64,000 bases of DNA, taken from the NCBI RefSeq assembly GCF_040427915.1, contig NZ_JBETXJ010000002.1, positions 1,426,001 to 1,490,000 of the forward strand, given 5' to 3'. How positions within the stretch are numbered: the first letter of the stretch is position 1; each line of letters starts with the position of its first letter. The notes below the pieces were generated by a model. That model saw nothing but the letters and a program-made list of their open reading frames with translations, searched no databases and was not told the origin of the DNA. Below are positions 7,246-34,453 of the stretch, piece after piece. The translations under genes were made by a program, and so were the position numbers. The DNA comes from Gardnerella vaginalis. Lineage in GTDB: Bacteria; Actinomycetota; Actinomycetes; Actinomycetales; Bifidobacteriaceae.

Positions 7246-9189
7246 ATGAAAATCGACAATTCAAATATCGAAATAATACCTTCACCACAAAATATATCAA
7301 TATACGCAAAAGATACTATTACGCTTCCACAATCAAGTCATATTAGTTTCATAAATATTAAACCAGACTTAAGAATAACTACAGCAGCAAAACAGCTATG
7401 TGAAGATTTGAAAAACAATCACAATTGCAACTGGAGCATTAGCTACGGAGAAGGATATAAAAGCGCCATATCGGCAGCTATTAACAAAAATCTACGCATT
7501 CAAGAATATAAAATTTCATCTAAAATCTCGACCAATCAAACACTTGTAAATATAGAAGCTGGGAGCATAGCGAGTATATGCTTTGCAATACAAACTATAA
7601 GACAACTAATTATGCAATATGGTCTAATACTGCCATCATTACAAATTCAAGACTTTCCAGAAATACCTGTAAGAGCATATTCTTATGATGTTTCAAGAGG
7701 AAGAGTGCCAAAACTTTCATGGTTAAAAACTTTAGTAGACCAGTTAAGCCTATACAAATATAATCAACTTCAACTATACGTAGAACATGTTATCGATTTA
7801 GATGACACAATTGAATCCTGGATTGGACATTCACCATTAACTTGTAATGAGATTATCGATCTAGATGAATACTGCTATGCAAGAGGAATAGAACTAGTTC
7901 CAACACTTGCAACTTTTGGACACATGTATGAAATACTAAGAAGCAATTCGTATAAACACCTTGGCGAATTCCCAGAACAAGCAGAAAGACCCTTCAGTTT
8001 TGTTGAAAGAATGATGCATCATACTCTAAATCCTACTAATCCTAACACTATACCGTTTATATCTAAAAGGATTAAAGATTATGCATCACTATTTAAATCT
8101 AATAAGTTTAATATTGGTGCCGATGAGACCTTTGACCTTGGGTGCGGTGAAAGTAAAAATGTTGCTGAAAAAATAGGAGTGGCAAATCTTTATTCATCCT
8201 ATATTAAAAAGCTATGTGAAAAATTACACGAATTGGGTTTGCAGCCAATAATGTATGCTGATATTGCAATAAAACACCCAGAGTTATTAGCTGATATTCC
8301 AAAAAATGTTATTTTTGCAAATTGGGATTACTCAGCAAACGTGAACGAATACAATACAAAACTAATAAACAGTCAGAATCGCGATCAATACGTATGCCCT
8401 GGCACACAATCTTGGAATAGGCTTATACCAGATTTTGACTCTGCTATAAGTAACATATCCAAAACATGTGAATATGGGCACAAAAATCATGTATTAGGAT
8501 TTTTGCTAACTGATTGGGGAGATTATGGACATATAAACGATCCCATACTCTCACTTCCGTATGTAATAATATCATCGGAATATGCTTGGAAATCTAATAA
8601 TATTACAAAAAAAGATTTAATAAACAAGGTAAGTAATGTATTTACTAACGGAACAAACTCAAACTTACTTAACATTATTAAACAAGCATCTCATGCACAA
8701 GCATTCAGCTGGTCTGACGCTGTGCAATTCAAAGAACTTGAATACAACAACGAAAATATAGCAAACGAAGATGTACTATTTTCATTAGGATATCCAAAAA
8801 ACACTTCCCTAGAACAAGCAAGAAGACGATTCTTAAATGAAAGAGAAGCACAAATATTAAATGCTAAAGAATATAATCGCACTCTATCAGAATGCTCAAA
8901 GAGCATCTACGATATAAATGCTTGCAGCGAAAATATAAACTGTGAAAATATAAACAAAGATTTTGTAAGCACTAGCATTTTAAACATTCAAGGTCAACAA
9001 CTGCTCAACCAATTAGGGTTGTACATACTAAACCAGAGATTTACTATAGCTGAAGCAAAATCTTTTAAAACAAATTTGAACGAATGGTTCACACAATATC
9101 AAAATCGTTGGGAATCAATAGGTAAAACGGCGGACTTGTACAGGATACGAGAAGTATTGGATTGGTATATAAAAAGACTAGGGCTGTGA
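7246..9189 (+). CDS. GH20 family beta-N-acetylhexosaminidase
   Basis: 647 residues without signal peptide, so cytoplasmic. An N-terminal GH20b-type domain (about 1-130) precedes the catalytic barrel, which begins at VRAYSYDVSRGRVPK. The catalytic Asp-Glu pair is in NIGADETFDLG (D293-E294). It removes terminal GlcNAc or GalNAc from glycans or oligosaccharides taken up by the cell. It lies 66 bases after the ROK repressor on the same strand, so the two are probably co-transcribed. The C-terminal 150 residues (after the barrel) are helical and not recognised. The gene is very AT-rich and uses AGA and ATA heavily. Confidence 0.82.
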   Translation: MKIDNSNIEIIPSPQNISIYAKDTITLPQSSHISFINIKPDLRITTAAKQLCEDLKNNHNCNWSISYGEGYKSAISAAINKNLRIQEYKISSKISTNQTLVNIEAGSIASICFAIQTIRQLIMQYGLILPSLQIQDFPEIPVRAYSYDVSRGRVPKLSWLKTLVDQLSLYKYNQLQLYVEHVIDLDDTIESWIGHSPLTCNEIIDLDEYCYARGIELVPTLATFGHMYEILRSNSYKHLGEFPEQAERPFSFVERMMHHTLNPTNPNTIPFISKRIKDYASLFKSNKFNIGADETFDLGCGESKNVAEKIGVANLYSSYIKKLCEKLHELGLQPIMYADIAIKHPELLADIPKNVIFANWDYSANVNEYNTKLINSQNRDQYVCPGTQSWNRLIPDFDSAISNISKTCEYGHKNHVLGFLLTDWGDYGHINDPILSLPYVIISSEYAWKSNNITKKDLINKVSNVFTNGTNSNLLNIIKQASHAQAFSWSDAVQFKELEYNNENIANEDVLFSLGYPKNTSLEQARRRFLNEREAQILNAKEYNRTLSECSKSIYDINACSENINCENINKDFVSTSILNIQGQQLLNQLGLYILNQRFTIAEAKSFKTNLNEWFTQYQNRWESIGKTADLYRIREVLDWYIKRLGL

Positions 9190-9326: not shown

Positions 9327-10292
9327 CTAATCTACAACATGCAAAGTACGATAAATGTAATTTTTATATTTTTCTGGATTAAGCTTACTGCATATTGCAA
9401 TATTCGGAGTTTTACCAGAGAAGAAATTAGCATCAACAAGAACTGAGCCATAACTTGGTCCAGGAGTTGCATCAACTTGGCAATAATATTTTGTGCATTC
9501 GCTTATACATTCAGGATATAACGCAGCTGCAACAGCAGATGGATCAGCCATATCGAGATAAGCATCCCCAAAACGGCTAATATTCATTTCCATTAATTCC
9601 CTATTACAATCAATGGCAAACTTACCAAGTTCTCCACTTTCGCGAATATTAGCAATTTCTTGTGGATTCAGCATACATTCTCCCAAGCATGCGTCCCATC
9701 CAACAAACATAATATTTTTAAGACCAGAATCAACTAATATCTTTGCAGCTTCTGCATCTTGCCAAATATTGAATTCTGCTACAGGAGAAACATTTCCACG
9801 ACCTAGACCAGCAGATCCCATAACTACTATACGACCAACTTTTTTCATCGCTTCATAATCAACCTTAATAGCTAGAGCAATGTTAGTTAATGGCCCTAAT
9901 GCAATAATGTCTATTTCACCATCTTCACTGTTTCTCAAAGTTTCAATCATTTTCAAAACAGCATTACCATTACTTTCTTTCAAGCGATGAGGCACTAGAC
10001 CAATATCACCCATTCCATCTCTACCATGGGTTTCATGAGCATAAACCAAATCGCGTAACAACATGCTACTGCTTCCTTTATATACAGGTGGCTCATATGA
10101 ACCAGCATGCTCGATAGTAGTAAGCGTATTAATAGTCGCTTGTTCCATGCATACGTTTCCTGATACAGTGGAAAACATTAATATCTTATATCTAGGATCA
10201 TTTAAAGCCATGGCAATTGCCATAGCATCATCTGAACCACAATCTGTATCTATTATTATTTTCTTTTTAGAATAAATTTCTTTATTTTCCAT
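9327..10292 (-). CDS. Nucleoside hydrolase (inosine-uridine preferring type)
   Basis: 321 residues. It has the family signature DTDCGSDDAMAI (residues 15-26), whose aspartates bind calcium and the ribose hydroxyls, then HGRDGMGD, a conserved GPLTNIALAI, and NIWQDAEAA near residue 175. It cleaves ribonucleosides to base and ribose. It starts 17 bases after the MFS gene stop, so both are almost certainly one transcript: uptake followed by hydrolysis. The base preference cannot be read from the sequence. Confidence 0.9.
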   Translation of the reverse strand: MENKEIYSKKKIIIDTDCGSDDAMAIAMALNDPRYKILMFSTVSGNVCMEQATINTLTTIEHAGSYEPPVYKGSSSMLLRDLVYAHETHGRDGMGDIGLVPHRLKESNGNAVLKMIETLRNSEDGEIDIIALGPLTNIALAIKVDYEAMKKVGRIVVMGSAGLGRGNVSPVAEFNIWQDAEAAKILVDSGLKNIMFVGWDACLGECMLNPQEIANIRESGELGKFAIDCNRELMEMNISRFGDAYLDMADPSAVAAALYPECISECTKYYCQVDATPGPSYGSVLVDANFFSGKTPNIAICSKLNPEKYKNYIYRTLHVVD

Positions 10293-10309
10293 AAACTTTC
10301 AACATCCTA

Positions 10310-11488
10310 TCAATTAATAGAATCTGTATTTTCAGATGTAACTATCTTTAACAGTGCAGCTGAAGCAATACATATTGCCAGCATTATAAGCCCAAATGTA
10401 TATGAGAACCCTACTCCAAACTGCGAAATAACAGCACCAACAACGATAGGAGTTAGCATATCAGCTACGCCACTTGCCGTAGCAACAATAGAACATGCTA
10501 TGCTTACGCGCTTATACATAATTCTAGAGGCAATTGCAACGATAACACTAAATAAAACGCCTAAGAAAAGACCAGCAACGAAAAGCCCAATATAGTAACT
10601 CAAGGCAGTGTTAACAAGCATTGCGGCAAGAATAGCAATAAAGGAACCGATGCAATTCATGAGTAGCACTAAGGTACCTTTTACATATCTCAGAATCCAG
10701 GTGAAAAGGAAACCTCCAAGAACACAACCTAAGTTAAATAGTGTAAACATAAATGCAGCATTTGATTCGCTTATTCCTTTTGTTATTGCAAAACTTGTTG
10801 TATACATGCCTATAGCAGTTGACACTCCGCTGAATGCGGCAACTGAAATAACAATTCCAGCATAGGCAAGAATCTTACTCTTAGCATATAGTGGCCTAAT
10901 ATGTTCTTCCTCTTTCTCTGTATTTTTAATCTCAGACGTATCTTTGACTATAAAAGACACAGCACAGATAATAAATGAAAGAATACCTAACACATAATAT
11001 GACCATGCATAAGATAATTTACCACTCAAGAACAGACCTAATACAAATGGCGAAACTGTAGTTCCTACACCAAATAGTCCTTGTCCAAAAGTCAATGAAC
11101 TTTCATAATTCTTTTTGAATATGCTACTTAACAATGTTGGGCATGCAGCATCCTGCGTGCCAAATGCAATGCCTCCTGCAAACGCAAGTATTAAACCAGA
11201 AACAAAACTAGGAATTGTAGGAATACCAAACATAAATATGCCAGTAATAAAAGTACCAATTCCTAAAACTTTTACTGATCCAATTCTCTCTACAAGAACA
11301 CCTGTTATGTTAACGGTGAGAATTCTACCAAGAGCATATGCTGATCCAAGTAAACCGACAAGTTCAATCTTCTGTCCATAGGTTTGTACTAACTGTGGCA
11401 ATGTACTGCCAATCATTACACATGTCGAACCTGCCAAGAAATACATAGCAAATGAAAGAAAAGCTTTTAGCGCATCATTACGCTTCAT
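10310..11488 (-). CDS. MFS transporter, possibly for nucleosides
   Basis: 392 residues with about twelve hydrophobic segments in two halves separated by a charged central loop (KDTSEIKNTEKEEEHIRP). This is a major-facilitator carrier. Substrate is inferred only from its operon partner, a nucleoside hydrolase; a hexose or other metabolite is possible. The promoter region is shared with the divergent Crp-family gene, where a TTATAA box and an ATGACA-CT-TGTCAT inverted repeat lie. Confidence 0.75.
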   Translation of the reverse strand: MKRNDALKAFLSFAMYFLAGSTCVMIGSTLPQLVQTYGQKIELVGLLGSAYALGRILTVNITGVLVERIGSVKVLGIGTFITGIFMFGIPTIPSFVSGLILAFAGGIAFGTQDAACPTLLSSIFKKNYESSLTFGQGLFGVGTTVSPFVLGLFLSGKLSYAWSYYVLGILSFIICAVSFIVKDTSEIKNTEKEEEHIRPLYAKSKILAYAGIVISVAAFSGVSTAIGMYTTSFAITKGISESNAAFMFTLFNLGCVLGGFLFTWILRYVKGTLVLLMNCIGSFIAILAAMLVNTALSYYIGLFVAGLFLGVLFSVIVAIASRIMYKRVSIACSIVATASGVADMLTPIVVGAVISQFGVGFSYTFGLIMLAICIASAALLKIVTSENTDSIN

Positions 11489-11576
11489 GATTTCACACTT
11501 TCCTAGTTCTTTTAATTAACATTTATAAACCATTAGAGGCTTGCCTAAAAAATATCATGATTTTATAATGCTTAAA

Positions 11577-11590
11577 ATGACACTTGTCAT
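11577..11590. promoter_or_regulatory. Crp-type operator 1 (ATGACA-N2-TGTCAT)
   Basis: Perfect inverted repeat ATGACACTTGTCAT between the divergent MFS and Crp-family genes. On the minus strand it lies just upstream of a TTATAA box for the MFS/nucleoside hydrolase transcript. The same 6-2-6 motif recurs at 12334-12347, which argues that it is the binding site of the intervening regulator. Confidence 0.65.
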
Positions 11591-11624
11591 GACTGATTTT
11601 GTTCTTAAGGAGTAAAAGTAAATC

Positions 11625-12326
11625 ATGAACAACAAATGTATAGCAACGGCGCTTGCATTTATACTAGATGCAACGGATAGCATGAGTACGATTGTAAAAA
11701 TAGAGAAAGCAAAACAACTCATTCCTCACCAATTCATACGAACATATCACACTAATGATGTTCTCATAAATATGAATAGTGCAGCAAAATATGTATATAT
11801 CTTTTTAGATGGTAAAGCTACAGTTAGAGGAAGTTTAAATCGTAACGATGGAGTTATTTCAAATATTGAACCAATAGAAATACTGGGACTTTTTGAACTC
11901 GTTACCAACGAACCGCATTATACTGCTTTCGTTATGGCAGAAGAAAAAAGTTTGGTATTTAGAATTCCATCTTCGCTATTTCGCGAAATTGTTCAAGAAA
12001 ATGGCAAAATTTGCTATTGCGTATTATCGATATTCGCAAAAACAGCGGGAAGAACAATGCAAGAAGCAGCAACGAAAAGACTACTTGAATCAATTGACAT
12101 TATCGGATATTATTTATATACTCAGGCAAGCAAACATAGACCGTATATATGCCCATATACTCGCGAAGATTTAGCAAAAATACTAAATATTAATTTACGA
12201 ACTTTATACAGATATTTAGAATCCATGAAAAAAGAGAATCTTATAACAAGCATAAGAGGAAAATTGGTTATAACGGACCAACATTTTGCTTTGCTGCATA
12301 AAAGATACTCTTCTATGACTATTTAA
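11625..12326 (+). CDS. Crp/Fnr-family transcriptional regulator
   Basis: 233 residues: an N-terminal cyclic-nucleotide-binding-type beta roll (about 30-130), a long dimerisation helix, and a C-terminal Crp-type winged helix (about 170-225, YTREDLAKILNINLRTLYRYLE). No Fnr-type cysteine cluster is seen, and the usual cAMP-pocket arginine motif is not recognisable, so the effector is unknown. Flanking genes encode nucleoside hydrolysis and an ECF importer, and matched inverted repeats lie on both sides. I infer it controls both transcripts. Upstream AAGGAG supports the start. Confidence 0.85.
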   Translation: MNNKCIATALAFILDATDSMSTIVKIEKAKQLIPHQFIRTYHTNDVLINMNSAAKYVYIFLDGKATVRGSLNRNDGVISNIEPIEILGLFELVTNEPHYTAFVMAEEKSLVFRIPSSLFREIVQENGKICYCVLSIFAKTAGRTMQEAATKRLLESIDIIGYYLYTQASKHRPYICPYTREDLAKILNINLRTLYRYLESMKKENLITSIRGKLVITDQHFALLHKRYSSMTI

Positions 12327-12365
12327 TTATCAAATGACAAATGTCATTTGATAATTAAATAGTCA
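12316..12365. repeat. Perfect 50-bp palindrome containing Crp-type operator 2
   Basis: Bases 12316-12365 read identically on both strands (24+2+24). The centre is AAATGACAAATGTCATTT, so the core ATGACA-N2-TGTCAT (12334-12347) matches operator 1. The left arm covers the last codons and the TAA of the regulator gene. The right arm holds a plausible -35 box for the ECF operon. As RNA it would form a long perfect hairpin that could end the regulator transcript. Confidence 0.85.
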
Positions 12366-12375
12366 AAAAGATAAT
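12348..12375 (+). promoter_or_regulatory. Candidate promoter of the ECF transporter operon
   Basis: TTGATA (12348-12353), 16 bases, then GATAAT (12370-12375), about 30 bases before the S-component ATG. The -35 box overlaps the right flank of operator 2, so bound regulator would be placed to block or contact RNA polymerase. Confidence 0.45.
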
Positions 12376-12405
12376 ATTTGTAGTAATCAAATAGGAAGTG
12401 ATTGC

Positions 12406-13017
12406 ATGAAACAGATAATTAAATCGTTCAAGGAAGAATTTACTACTGTTGCAGTTGTCACCATACCATTATGTGTTGCTGTTAATTATATTTCTGGAAC
12501 TATAGCAGGTCTACTAAAACTACCTATTTTCCTTGATACTATAGGTACTTTATTTGCATGCATGATTTTTGGGCCACTTGTAGGAATAACAACTGGAATG
12601 CTATCCTCAATAATTTCATCAATCACTATGCCAACCATGCTTCCATTTATAGTGGTCAATATTGCTCTGGCCTTATGCGCTGGTATTCTAGCAAAACATA
12701 AAATGTTTTCAAATTATATGAAAATTTTTATTTCTTCAATAATCATGGCAACAGTATCCATTATTATTTCAGCACCGATTGTAGTCCTAATATTTAGCGG
12801 GTTCACTGGCGGAGGATCATCTATTATAGCGGCTTTAATAACTGCATCTGGAATGAATATCTGGATTTCTGTATTCTCTACTGAAGGATTCTTTACATGG
12901 GTTGATAGAGTATTAACGATTATTATATGCTTAAGCGTTATAAAATGTTTGCCCAATAAATTACTGCTTCTATTCCCATTAGGTTTACTTTATTTAAAAA
13001 ATTCAGATTCTGAATAG
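12406..13017 (+). CDS. ECF transporter substrate-binding S component
   Basis: 203 residues with six hydrophobic segments, basic ends and the FLDTIGTLFACMIFGPLVGITTG stretch (residues 42-64 region) typical of S components that plunge into the membrane with an ECF module. It decides the substrate of the four-subunit importer encoded in this operon. The vitamin type cannot be read from sequence; the neighbouring nucleoside hydrolase and shared operator suggest a nucleoside-related compound (inference). AGGAAGTGATTGC upstream supports the start. Confidence 0.78.
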   Translation: MKQIIKSFKEEFTTVAVVTIPLCVAVNYISGTIAGLLKLPIFLDTIGTLFACMIFGPLVGITTGMLSSIISSITMPTMLPFIVVNIALALCAGILAKHKMFSNYMKIFISSIIMATVSIIISAPIVVLIFSGFTGGGSSIIAALITASGMNIWISVFSTEGFFTWVDRVLTIIICLSVIKCLPNKLLLLFPLGLLYLKNSDSE

Positions 13018-13065
13018 TAAAAATTAAATCGAGTTTACTATATAAAGACAGAGATAAAAGTAATT

Positions 13066-13878
13066 ATGTACATGCATTATATCAATACCATTAATCAAGT
13101 AAAAAATACCAAGATACTTGCGACGCTGTATCCGACAACAAAATTTATATTGACCATATATTTAATATTAGTAGACATTATATTAAATACTTTTTCATTC
13201 ACATTATACAATTTACGACTTTTATTGTTTCCCTATTTTGTTGCTCTACTTGTTCTGATGATTCTATGCGGAGTAAAAAAGAATGGATATAAGCTTGTAT
13301 CAAGTATAGCTATGTTCTCATTATTTGTTGCGATATTTCAAGTCGCTTTCTGTAGACAAGGAAATGCAATATTAAGTCTTAATTTTTTGCAGATTACAGA
13401 TACAGCATTGTCTAATGCTATAACGCTCGGAATGAATACCTTAAATATATCAACTATAGTCATATGTTTTTTCCAAATAACTGATATAGAAGATATTACA
13501 ATATCCTTAAACAAACTTGGGATGAGCAATAAAACATGTTTCATAATACTTTCTACTTTCCAAACGATTGATTATTTACAAGTGCAAATTAAAGCAATCA
13601 TAACCTCGCAAAAAAGTCGTGGAATAAACTTTAATGGAAATTTAATACGTAGAATTGGCACATTTACTTCGATTTTACTTCCAGCATTTATTACTTCATT
13701 AATAAACATCGAGCAACGCATAATGATGCTTGATTCGCGAAATTTTTTTAGTTCAGAAAAAAAGACATATATTAAACAGGTTAATCATAATGGTCACGAA
13801 AAATTAGTACTAACAATAGGAACGATTACACTAGTTTTTCTTATTCTAGGAAGAGTAATTTATGGTTATATCATATAA
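13066..13878 (+). CDS. ecfT: ECF transporter transmembrane T component
   Basis: 270 residues, membrane protein with hydrophobic N-terminal half and the two coupling-helix signatures near the C-terminus: SQKSRGI (about residue 184) and MLDSRNF (about 225). These helices dock onto the two ATPases. It overlaps the first ATPase gene by 17 bases, which indicates translational coupling. It forms the scaffold joining the S component to the ATPases. Confidence 0.82.
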   Translation: MYMHYINTINQVKNTKILATLYPTTKFILTIYLILVDIILNTFSFTLYNLRLLLFPYFVALLVLMILCGVKKNGYKLVSSIAMFSLFVAIFQVAFCRQGNAILSLNFLQITDTALSNAITLGMNTLNISTIVICFFQITDIEDITISLNKLGMSNKTCFIILSTFQTIDYLQVQIKAIITSQKSRGINFNGNLIRRIGTFTSILLPAFITSLINIEQRIMMLDSRNFFSSEKKTYIKQVNHNGHEKLVLTIGTITLVFLILGRVIYGYII

Positions 13879-14716
13879 TATTTGCAATTTTTCATATACT
13901 TATCCACTTACTTCAAAACCAGCTTTAAGCAACATAACAATACAGCTAGAATTAGGAAAAATATATGGAGTAATTGGAGCTAACGCTTCAGGTAAATCAA
14001 GTCTATGCTTATCTCTTAAAGGATATATTCCTCATTTCTATAAGGGGAAATATTCTGGAAAAATACTATTAAACAACACGATTGATTTAGTAAAATCTAA
14101 TGATTGTGACAGTGTAGGATTTGTATTTAGCGATCCTTTTTCACAGTTAAGTCATATCAAAAAAACTGTATTTGAAGAAATTGCATTTAGCTTAGAAAAT
14201 CGCAGTATCCCTGTTCAACAAATAGAGAGTCTGGTTACACAAGTTATGCAATTACTTAACATAGAACAACTTGCGCTTCAAAACCCACTAAACCTATCCG
14301 GCGGGCAGGTTCAACGCGTTGCAATCGCGTGCGTTATAGTTAATAATCCAGAAATACTAATTCTTGACGAACCTACTTCACAACTTGATCCAGAAGAAAC
14401 TAAAAATATTTATAATTTTCTACAAAAATACAGAGACGAAGGACATACCGTAATAATTAGTGAACAAGATACAAATTTGTTAGCAGAATATGCAGATAAT
14501 ATTATTGTTCTTCAAAATGGTTTTATCACTCATTATGGAAATAAATATGATGTTTTTTATGATGAAACTTTCCCTTCTGACTGTATTGATATTCCAGAAG
14601 TTGTCAAAATTGTGAAAAAGTTACGTAATTTTGATATCAAAATAACCCCTGACATAACAGATATAGGCGAATTAATAGTTTTATTAAAGGAGAAATGCGA
14701 TGAGCATCGCAATTAA
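13862..14716 (+). CDS. ecfA: ECF transporter ATPase, canonical subunit
   Basis: 284 residues. Walker A GANASGKSS (39-47), ABC signature LSGGQ (145-149), Walker B LILDEPTSQLD (166-176) and an EQD switch (SEQDTN) in place of the usual His-loop histidine. It hydrolyses ATP to drive the ECF importer and pairs with the next gene product. It overlaps its neighbours on both sides (17 bases each), so the four genes are one tightly coupled operon. Confidence 0.85.
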   Translation: MVISYNICNFSYTYPLTSKPALSNITIQLELGKIYGVIGANASGKSSLCLSLKGYIPHFYKGKYSGKILLNNTIDLVKSNDCDSVGFVFSDPFSQLSHIKKTVFEEIAFSLENRSIPVQQIESLVTQVMQLLNIEQLALQNPLNLSGGQVQRVAIACVIVNNPEILILDEPTSQLDPEETKNIYNFLQKYRDEGHTVIISEQDTNLLAEYADNIIVLQNGFITHYGNKYDVFYDETFPSDCIDIPEVVKIVKKLRNFDIKITPDITDIGELIVLLKEKCDEHRN

Positions 14717-15545
14717 ATTGGACGATGTAAGTTTTCAATATCATTCAAATGAAAAAATAAAAAATAAAAACAATGATAAACAAGAGAAATCCTGCAGAAT
14801 ACTAAAACACGTAAACGTAGAATTCGAAAGTGGTGAATTATGCGCAATAATAGGTAGCAATGGAGCAGGTAAAAGCACTCTCGCCAAAATAATAGACAAT
14901 TTATTACAGCCAACTTCTGGTGACATAACTATTGAAGGAAAACAATATAAGACATTAAAGCAACACGACATTACATCACTCGTTGGTTATATTTTTCAAA
15001 ACCCAAATGATCAAATTTTTAACAGCACTGTGCATAAAGAAATTACATATGGGATAAAGAATATAAACAATGATCTTTACCGTCGCGTTCTGAATCTTAC
15101 TGGTTTAAACGATAAAGAAAATACAAACCCGTTTAATTTGTCATTCTCTGAAAGAAAATTTATTAACATTGCATCTGCACTACTAAGAGAACCACATATT
15201 ATTATTATGGATGAAGTGACTGGTGGATTGGATAAACTACAAAAAATGCGACTTGTAAAAATACTTAATTATTTACATATGATAAATGTAACAGTATTAT
15301 TTATCACCCATGACATGGAATTTGCATACGAAAATTGTCAAAATGCTCTCATACTTGATAACGGAAATGTGCTATACAAAGGGAGTATCGAATCTGCATT
15401 CCAGAATGTAGAAATAGTAAGACGCGCGCATATTGACCAACCAATCATAGTACAGATAATGAATGCGCTCGGAATCAACTATATATATAAAGATAATCCT
15501 ATAAGTGCTTTAGCTAAATATATCGCGAATCGCAATAATCATTAA
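14700..15545 (+). CDS. ECF transporter ATPase, second subunit with degenerate signature motif
   Basis: 281 residues. Walker A GSNGAGKST (52-60), Q loop FQNPNDQIF (99-107), Walker B IIIMDEVTGGLD and H loop ITHD are all present. The ABC signature reads LSFSERK (147-153) instead of LSGGQ. Since each ATP site uses Walker A of one subunit and the signature of the other, the site formed by this signature and the partner Walker A is probably weakened, giving an asymmetric pair. Last gene of the ECF operon. Confidence 0.85.
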   Translation: MSIAIKLDDVSFQYHSNEKIKNKNNDKQEKSCRILKHVNVEFESGELCAIIGSNGAGKSTLAKIIDNLLQPTSGDITIEGKQYKTLKQHDITSLVGYIFQNPNDQIFNSTVHKEITYGIKNINNDLYRRVLNLTGLNDKENTNPFNLSFSERKFINIASALLREPHIIIMDEVTGGLDKLQKMRLVKILNYLHMINVTVLFITHDMEFAYENCQNALILDNGNVLYKGSIESAFQNVEIVRRAHIDQPIIVQIMNALGINYIYKDNPISALAKYIANRNNH

Positions 15546-34361: not shown

Positions 34362-34381
34362 ATATCTTAGATTTGTAAATA
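34348..34381 (+). repeat. Perfect 17-bp tandem duplication over the pdxT stop codon
   Basis: TCTTAGATTTGTAAATA occurs twice in a row (34348-34364, 34365-34381). The TAA at 34359-34361 is in the first copy. Confidence 0.9.
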
Positions 34382-34419
34382 AATGTGGCACTTAAATCAC
34401 TTGTTTAAGTGCCACATTT
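34381..34419. terminator. Bidirectional terminator between pdxT and the GH13 gene
   Basis: AAATGTGGCACTTAAA (34381-34396) and its exact complement TTTAAGTGCCACATTT (34404-34419) form a 16-bp stem with a 7-base loop. The genes on both sides converge on it. Confidence 0.88.
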
Positions 34420-34453
34420 ATGATTAAAACACTATTAAAACGCCATTAAACCG

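Follow-up and report, generated by a model that had tools for sequence, protein, structure and literature searches.

The gene of a Crp-family regulator (crp) in Gardnerella vaginalis ends inside a perfect 50-bp palindrome, and the genes of an ECF importer follow it. This arrangement raises the question of whether the palindrome is an operator for the regulator protein, a hairpin that ends the regulator's mRNA, or both at once, as a first-pass annotation had proposed. We addressed this question by computational analysis of the window, the whole 64,000-nucleotide stretch of DNA that contains the locus, and by comparison with other genomes. Table 1 lists the features of the locus.

Table 1. Features of the crp-ECF locus, by position in the window. 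L033 is the corresponding stretch of Arcanobacterium urinimassiliense.
Feature	Position	Strand	Basis or remark
Inosine-uridine type nucleoside hydrolase	9327..10292	-	PF01156, 255.5 bits
MFS transporter, divergent from crp	10310..11488	-	PF07690
Candidate -35 TTGCCT, crp	11541..11546	+	promoter scan
Candidate -10 GATATT, MFS operon	11551..11556	-	would put op1 at -39.5 (weak); offset shared with L033
Candidate -10 TATAAT, crp	11564..11569	+	7 nt upstream of op1; same offset as TATACT at L033 3890-3895
op1, putative core operator ATGACACTTGTCAT	11577..11590	.	divergent MFS/crp gap; 6-bp arms only; counterpart ATGACAGTTGTCAG, L033 3903-3916
Crp-family regulator, 233 aa	11625..12326	+	cNMP-binding domain and Crp-type HTH; PF00027 and PF13545 above cut-off
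Perfect palindrome, 24+2+24	12316..12365	.	arm pairing; same in the second species (G109); arm without a second copy
Stop codon TAA of crp, inside left arm	12324..12326	+	7 nt before op2 (L033: 6 nt)
op2, putative core operator ATGACAAATGTCAT	12334..12347	.	center 12340.5; one of two genome places; counterpart CTGCCATTTGTCAT, L033 4634-4647
Candidate -35 TTGATA, ECF operon, right arm	12348..12353	+	promoter scan
Candidate -10 GATAAT, ECF operon	12370..12375	+	op2 at -41.5; same offset as AATAAT at L033 4670-4675
ECF S component	12406..13017	+	PF12822, 33.6 bits; NF045596 (CD3073 family), 111.8 of 180, below cut-off
ECF T component	13066..13878	+	PF02361
ECF ATPase	13862..14716	+	domain and NCBIfam scans
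ECF ATPase	14700..15545	+	domain and NCBIfam scans

The regulator and its gene cluster

The regulator is a member of the Crp/Fnr family by its domain scores and its predicted fold. The N-terminal cyclic-nucleotide-binding-type domain (PF00027) scored 44 bits against a cut-off of 27.5 and the C-terminal Crp-type helix-turn-helix (PF13545) scored 31.1 bits against 27, and no NCBIfam model reached its cut-off. The best Foldseek matches to the structural model (mean pLDDT, 79.9) were CRP, NtcA, GlxR, and their kin, with E values from 1.5e-10, at a TM score of only about 0.4 and an rmsd near 14 and with the placement of the domains uncertain. The closest solved chains were those of E. coli CRP, at about 20% identity, and the protein homologues P0002 and P0004 showed 51% and 38% identity, respectively. 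Judging from the neighboring genes, the ECF importer probably takes up a nucleoside or a similar compound.

A perfect palindrome at the end of the crp gene

The first-pass annotation described 50 bases that are exactly self-complementary over 24+2+24, and arm pairing confirmed this: positions 12316 to 12339 and 12342 to 12365 are 100% complementary around an AA spacer. The crp open reading frame ends with ATG ACT ATT (12315 to 12323) before the TAA, and the left arm does hold the final codons and the stop codon as described, except for the first base of the ATG, which lies outside it. The ATGACA-N2-TGTCAT motif reported at the center is also present and forms the core that we call op2.

The palindrome is real and nonrandom. 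By simple arithmetic (loops of 0 to 12 nt, per-pair match probability of 0.2725), a repeat this perfect would turn up by chance in the 1.64-Mb genome with a probability of about 6e-7. In 464 kb of sampled sequence that included the window, 11 perfect inverted repeats had arms of at least 13 and loops of 0 to 12; the palindrome was the longest of them, the runners-up being 22+2+22 and 20+5+20. Assemblies can produce perfect inverted repeats, but the identical 50 bases are found in a second species of the genus (G109), which differs from the window's own genome (G000) at 226 positions over the surrounding 9.7-kb stretch (2.3%), and we find an origin by chance or by misassembly scarcely credible. 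The genome sample holds further long perfect hairpins, as would be expected if the palindrome were a dispersed palindromic repeat or the remnant of a mobile element that had landed by accident at the end of a gene. We rejected this highly improbable reading, which requires several copies in the genome, because the 24-nt arm, searched with up to 3 mismatches, matched only its own two positions in both G000 and G109 and matched nothing in the genome of A. urinimassiliense. A 1001-bp query likewise matched only this locus, which among the 112 genomes of the genus only G000 and G109 carry, but the arm search is the better test for copies, the longer query having scored 4 of 31 first-look candidates in G000 and 4 of 34 in G109. 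There was no match to a known RNA family at Rfam gathering thresholds between positions 9000 and 16000. In the open-licence literature we found nothing on this locus, nor on an operator, a stop codon, and a hairpin combined in one element.

The core of the palindrome as an operator

The 1.64-Mb genome has two copies of the 14-bp pattern ATGACANNTGTCAT, op1 and op2, which lie 757 bp apart and flank the Crp-family gene, and it has none of the reversed control. With up to 3 mismatches allowed, the core pattern was found 37 times in the window versus a shuffle mean of 32.2, which is no excess, and the only exact matches were op1 and op2. The looser 12-mer TGNCANNTGTCA was found at 8 distinct places in G000 (2 at the locus; reversed controls, 0 and 4) and at 6 in G109 (2 at the locus; reversed controls, 2 and 3). 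Because the loose pattern is not rare in these genomes, it carries little weight there, and the argument is carried by the exact 14-mer. A full TGACANNTGTCA at C2:1289772 of G000, upstream of a gene that we labeled by eye as MerR type, matches the core in its inner 12 bases but not in the outer two, and we treated it as a chance occurrence.

An alignment-based scan of genome contigs, a kind of scan that may omit near relatives of the window's genome, found one relative of the cluster, in A. urinimassiliense. This genome carries all seven genes in the order and orientation of the window, with identities of 74% for the nucleoside hydrolase, 76% for the MFS transporter, 48% for the regulator, 59% for the S component, 47% for the T component, and 48% and 44% for the ATPases. 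The hydrolase and the MFS transporter (74 to 76%) are far more conserved than the regulator and the ECF parts (44 to 59%). By eye, the Arcanobacterium stretch also encodes a near copy of the homologue P0003.

Core-like sites occupy the same two positions in Arcanobacterium: ATGACAGTTGTCAG precedes crp, and CTGCCATTTGTCAT lies 6 nt beyond the stop codon of that gene. The latter agrees with the op2 core at 12 of 14 bases, the two central positions being free. A third core-like site, TGGCAAATGTCA (L033 4718-4731), covers the start codon of the ECF S component. Across the whole Arcanobacterium genome, TGNCANNTGTCA was found at 4 distinct places, 3 of them within 827 bp at the cluster (reversed controls, 0 and 1); random scatter would give such clustering with a probability of about 1e-6, an estimate made with a pattern that was relaxed after the first two sites had been seen. 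The claim that the palindrome's center binds the regulator is thus supported by the uniqueness of the two places in the genome, by the sites at both syntenic positions in another genus, and by a shared promoter spacing (see below). On this sequence evidence, the core of the palindrome is very probably the regulator's own operator, a reading that we consider well supported.

A regulator of the same type (E values up to 1e-15) was found in 2 of 189 genomes of the family and in 1 of 213 genomes of the Arcanobacterium family, the latter being A. urinimassiliense. A phylum-wide search matched 5 of 396 genomes, including the window's own, and the matches in the other 4 were distant Crp proteins; no ECF cluster was seen in the 2.7 to 3.6 kb around each of these 4 genes, for which beginnings of open reading frames were read by eye. 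A single-sequence scan of genome contigs and an alignment scan of viral contigs returned no relative. One of these 4 distant Crp-family genes has a 6+2+6 palindrome, GTAACATATGTTAC (L056 1380-1393), about 16 bp before its likely start, and this sequence shares 4 of 6 half-site bases with the core.

The G+C content of the cluster (9327 to 15545 in the window; L033 1660-7776) is 32.7% in the window and 34.9% in Arcanobacterium. The surroundings average 41% in the sampled stretches of the window's genome and 47 to 51% in the short Arcanobacterium flanks (1.7 and 0.8 kb). In both genera, then, the cluster stands out by its low G+C content, which suggests horizontal acquisition from a low-G+C source.

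The junction in G109 carries the palindrome unchanged (50 of 50 bases), with 0 differences over the 90 bases of the palindrome and the next 40 bases and 1 difference over the 136 bases of the op1 gap. However, only about 1 change would be expected in 50 bases at 2.3% divergence, and ten other segments free of differences within these 9.7 kb are longer than the 129-base one around the palindrome. Identity of this kind says little about constraint. Selection, too, would be consistent with perfect arms in both species. The two genomes are closely related, and our comparison covers two independent lineages only.

Candidate promoters and operator geometry

The -35 box that had been placed in the right arm of the palindrome is plausible as a box, and the promoter to which it would belong is predicted only. 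The hexamer TTGATA is present there on the plus strand and, with GATAAT after a spacer of 16 nt, gives a 10-of-12 match to a sigma-70-type promoter, in a noisy scan that returned 16 matches in 1.7 kb versus a shuffle mean of 10.3.

The distances between operators and candidate -10 boxes are shared between the two genera. The crp -10 lies 15 bases from the operator center and the ECF -10 lies 30 bases from it in both; a weaker MFS -10, at 28 bases in both, reads GATATT in the window and GATAAT in Arcanobacterium. The crp -35 candidates, TTGCCT in the window and TTGGTG in Arcanobacterium, match 4 and 3 of 6 consensus bases, respectively, at a spacing of 17 nt. In base-shuffled Arcanobacterium flanks, shared offsets arose at rates of 0.0245 for crp, 0.016 for ECF, and 0.24 for MFS, and all three together arose in 0.00015 of 20,000 shuffles; these rates apply to thresholds that were fixed after the hexamers had been seen, in A+T-rich DNA where -10-like hexamers are common. 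The first transcribed base usually lies seven bases after the -10 box, and by this rule the shared offsets would place op1 immediately downstream of the transcription start of crp and center op2 at -41.5 relative to that of the ECF operon. Relative to these predicted starts, a repression geometry of op1 for crp and a class II activation geometry of op2 for the ECF operon are plausible. The -35-like box would also suit a promoter that is active on its own.

The long arms and the RNA hairpin

Pairing outward from the center continues for 24 bases at op2 and for 6 at op1, and it breaks after 2 at the Arcanobacterium counterpart of op2. With pairing limited to 6 bases at op1 and to 2 at the Arcanobacterium site, the putative operator does not include the long arms. 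In RNA, they form a stable hairpin at the end of the crp gene (-31.3 kcal/mol for 86 nt, z = -9.13); the other two foldings of the window hairpin gave z scores of -8.35 and, for the minus strand, -9.32 versus shuffles. The Arcanobacterium op2 RNA folded no better than its shuffles (z = -0.19).

The first-pass annotation had suggested that this hairpin could end the regulator's mRNA, and that part of its proposal was left unsupported. The bases 3' of the stem are A rich, not T rich, and we rejected an intrinsic terminator of the U-tract type for want of a T run after the stem, even though the hairpin itself is stable; a scan for terminator-like sites between 11400 and 13100 returned 0 (shuffle mean, 0.7), and Arcanobacterium has no comparable hairpin. 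According to a review, mycobacteria have terminators that lack U-tracts; papers on both sides of the matter are among its references. Transcripts of the ECF operon are predicted to start at about 12382, past the end of the palindrome, and the hairpin would therefore be confined to the crp mRNA, where it is probably incidental.

Template switching is described as making perfect hairpins in a single event (PMC8794818). The simplest account is that such an event enlarged op2, and the arms are probably a lineage-specific by-product. When we aligned the flanks with those of Arcanobacterium, neither the left (0.31) nor the right (0.20) did better than shuffles, and these tests did not show which arm is the older. 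The comparison would then tell a short conserved operator apart from a long palindrome that grew around it, and it cautions against taking every perfect hairpin at the end of a gene for a terminator.

A model for the locus and its alternatives

From the sites, their rarity, their syntenic counterparts, their spacing, and the absence of the long arms elsewhere, we infer a model in which binding, its sign (activation or repression), an inducing ligand, and the origin of the arms are conditional. The 14 bp at the center of the palindrome would be an operator for the Crp-family protein whose gene lies just upstream, and op1 and op2 together would place a nucleoside-type uptake cluster under local control as a regulon. 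Bound at about -41.5, a dimer of the regulator on op2 would most likely act as a class II activator of the ECF operon. On op1, a dimer would cover the crp start and most likely hold down the regulator's own expression, and it may also activate the divergently transcribed operon of the MFS transporter and the nucleoside hydrolase. The remaining 18 bp of each arm would be dispensable for binding; most likely, a template switch during replication across the operator made one flank a copy of the other. We give this model as a whole, including the activating role of op2 and the template switch, a probability of somewhat under 60%. If correct, it specifies, for two genera with small genomes, how operators and promoters are arranged where a Crp-family protein controls an ECF importer of the nucleoside type.

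The regulator could instead repress at both sites, with the ECF and MFS operons turned on when a ligand releases it. In favor of this reading, op2 lies directly next to a fair -35 box (TTGATA, 10 of 12 with its -10), so that the promoter may need no help, op1 overlaps the predicted crp start, and the third Arcanobacterium site covers the S start codon. However, the -41.5 spacing common to both genera is the classic position of an activator, and the Arcanobacterium ECF promoter has a poorer -35 (by eye, TAGATA with a 17-nt spacer at best), and we regard repression at both sites as possible but rather doubtful. A different alternative retains op2 as an operator and adds a function in RNA, with the hairpin ending the crp mRNA, pausing transcription, or allowing RNase III to process the transcript, so that the ECF mRNA is separated from it. 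The great stability of the hairpin, its start at the final codons of the gene, a likely place for a 3' end, and the U-tract-free mycobacterial terminators of the review all speak for such a role, but the stem is A+T rich and lacks a U-tract after it, Arcanobacterium does without such a hairpin despite the same gene order and a core-like site, and a hairpin with its T run lies downstream of the crp paralogue of this genome, so canonical-looking terminators do occur there. We consider this dual role unlikely. Should the hairpin act on the mRNA, one element would serve two layers of control, an unusual economy. In one form of this reading, a single element would be read twice, as a DNA operator from which the regulator activates the ECF operon and as a 24-bp RNA hairpin, able to form only as ribosomes leave the crp stop codon, that ends or cuts the crp mRNA; the same bases would then link binding by the regulator, its translation, and the separation of the two transcripts. 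This form seems to us improbable, and we retain the model of an activating op2 with incidental arms.

Comparison with known systems

PrfA-type boxes of the Crp/Fnr family are 14-bp palindromes of 6+2+6 with the half-site TTAACA. Both op1 and op2 have this geometry and flank the gene of a Crp-family regulator, but their half-site is ATGACA. The Listeria protein Lmo0753, which we take to be PrfA-like, was among the PDB sequence matches of the regulator, and PrfA itself was not among the matches listed, the best 60 of 79. CRP and FNR activate class II promoters from sites centered at -41.5, the position predicted for op2 at the candidate ECF promoter, itself predicted, in two genera.

The E. coli gene yeiL, of the Crp family, resembles the gene described here in being divergent from a nucleoside transporter and hydrolase pair, nupX-rihB. 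Unlike at our locus, no ECF operon follows it in the stretch examined, and its site is without a long palindrome. That site, TATGAGAAATCTCATA in the rihB/yeiL gap of E. coli K-12 (L058 2788-2803), is a candidate YeiL operator: it lies about 50 bp before yeiL and forms a perfect 7+2+7 palindrome spaced like op1 and op2. We rejected orthology with YeiL for the window's regulator, whose alignment score of 39 versus a shuffle mean of 31.6 (z = 1.4) was not significant; the Arcanobacterium homologue gave a weak z score of 4.6.

Ribonucleoside regulons of bifidobacteria are described for RbsR2 and RbsR3, with the motif TGATAAAACGTTTTATCA (PMC4746261). They have in common with the present locus the local control of genes for nucleoside hydrolase and transport, but those regulators are of the LacI family and have another motif, whereas ours is of the Crp family. 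The word Crp does not occur in the main text of that article.

Other hairpins and repeats in the genome

Perfect hairpins were also seen at L068 13354-13399 (22+2+22), L065 17577-17621 (20+5+20), L077 5204-5248 (17+11+17), and L071 7066-7103 (15+8+15) and at 34379 to 34421 of the window (18+7+18). Those of L068, L065, L077, and L071 start with runs of A and end with matching runs of T, and they could be bidirectional terminators. In G109, no match was found for the portion of the L068 query with the 22+2+22 hairpin. The L065 hairpin is present in G109, where one change in the left arm keeps the RNA pair as G-U.

The genome of the window contains a second set of such genes (L026 4722-9932; C2 of G000, about 1594720 to 1599930), with a Crp-family gene, the S and T components and two ATPases of an ECF importer, and a nucleoside hydrolase, all on one strand. 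Its regulator is a distant Crp paralogue, and the labels of the T component, the ATPases, and the hydrolase were assigned by eye. In the scans used, no core-like palindrome or ATGACA-type site was found at the locus of this paralogue. Some 290 bp before the crp gene of this set, six 23-bp units lie head to tail (L026 10221-10358), a repeat that was reported as five overlapping 46-bp copies that are 72 to 87% alike.
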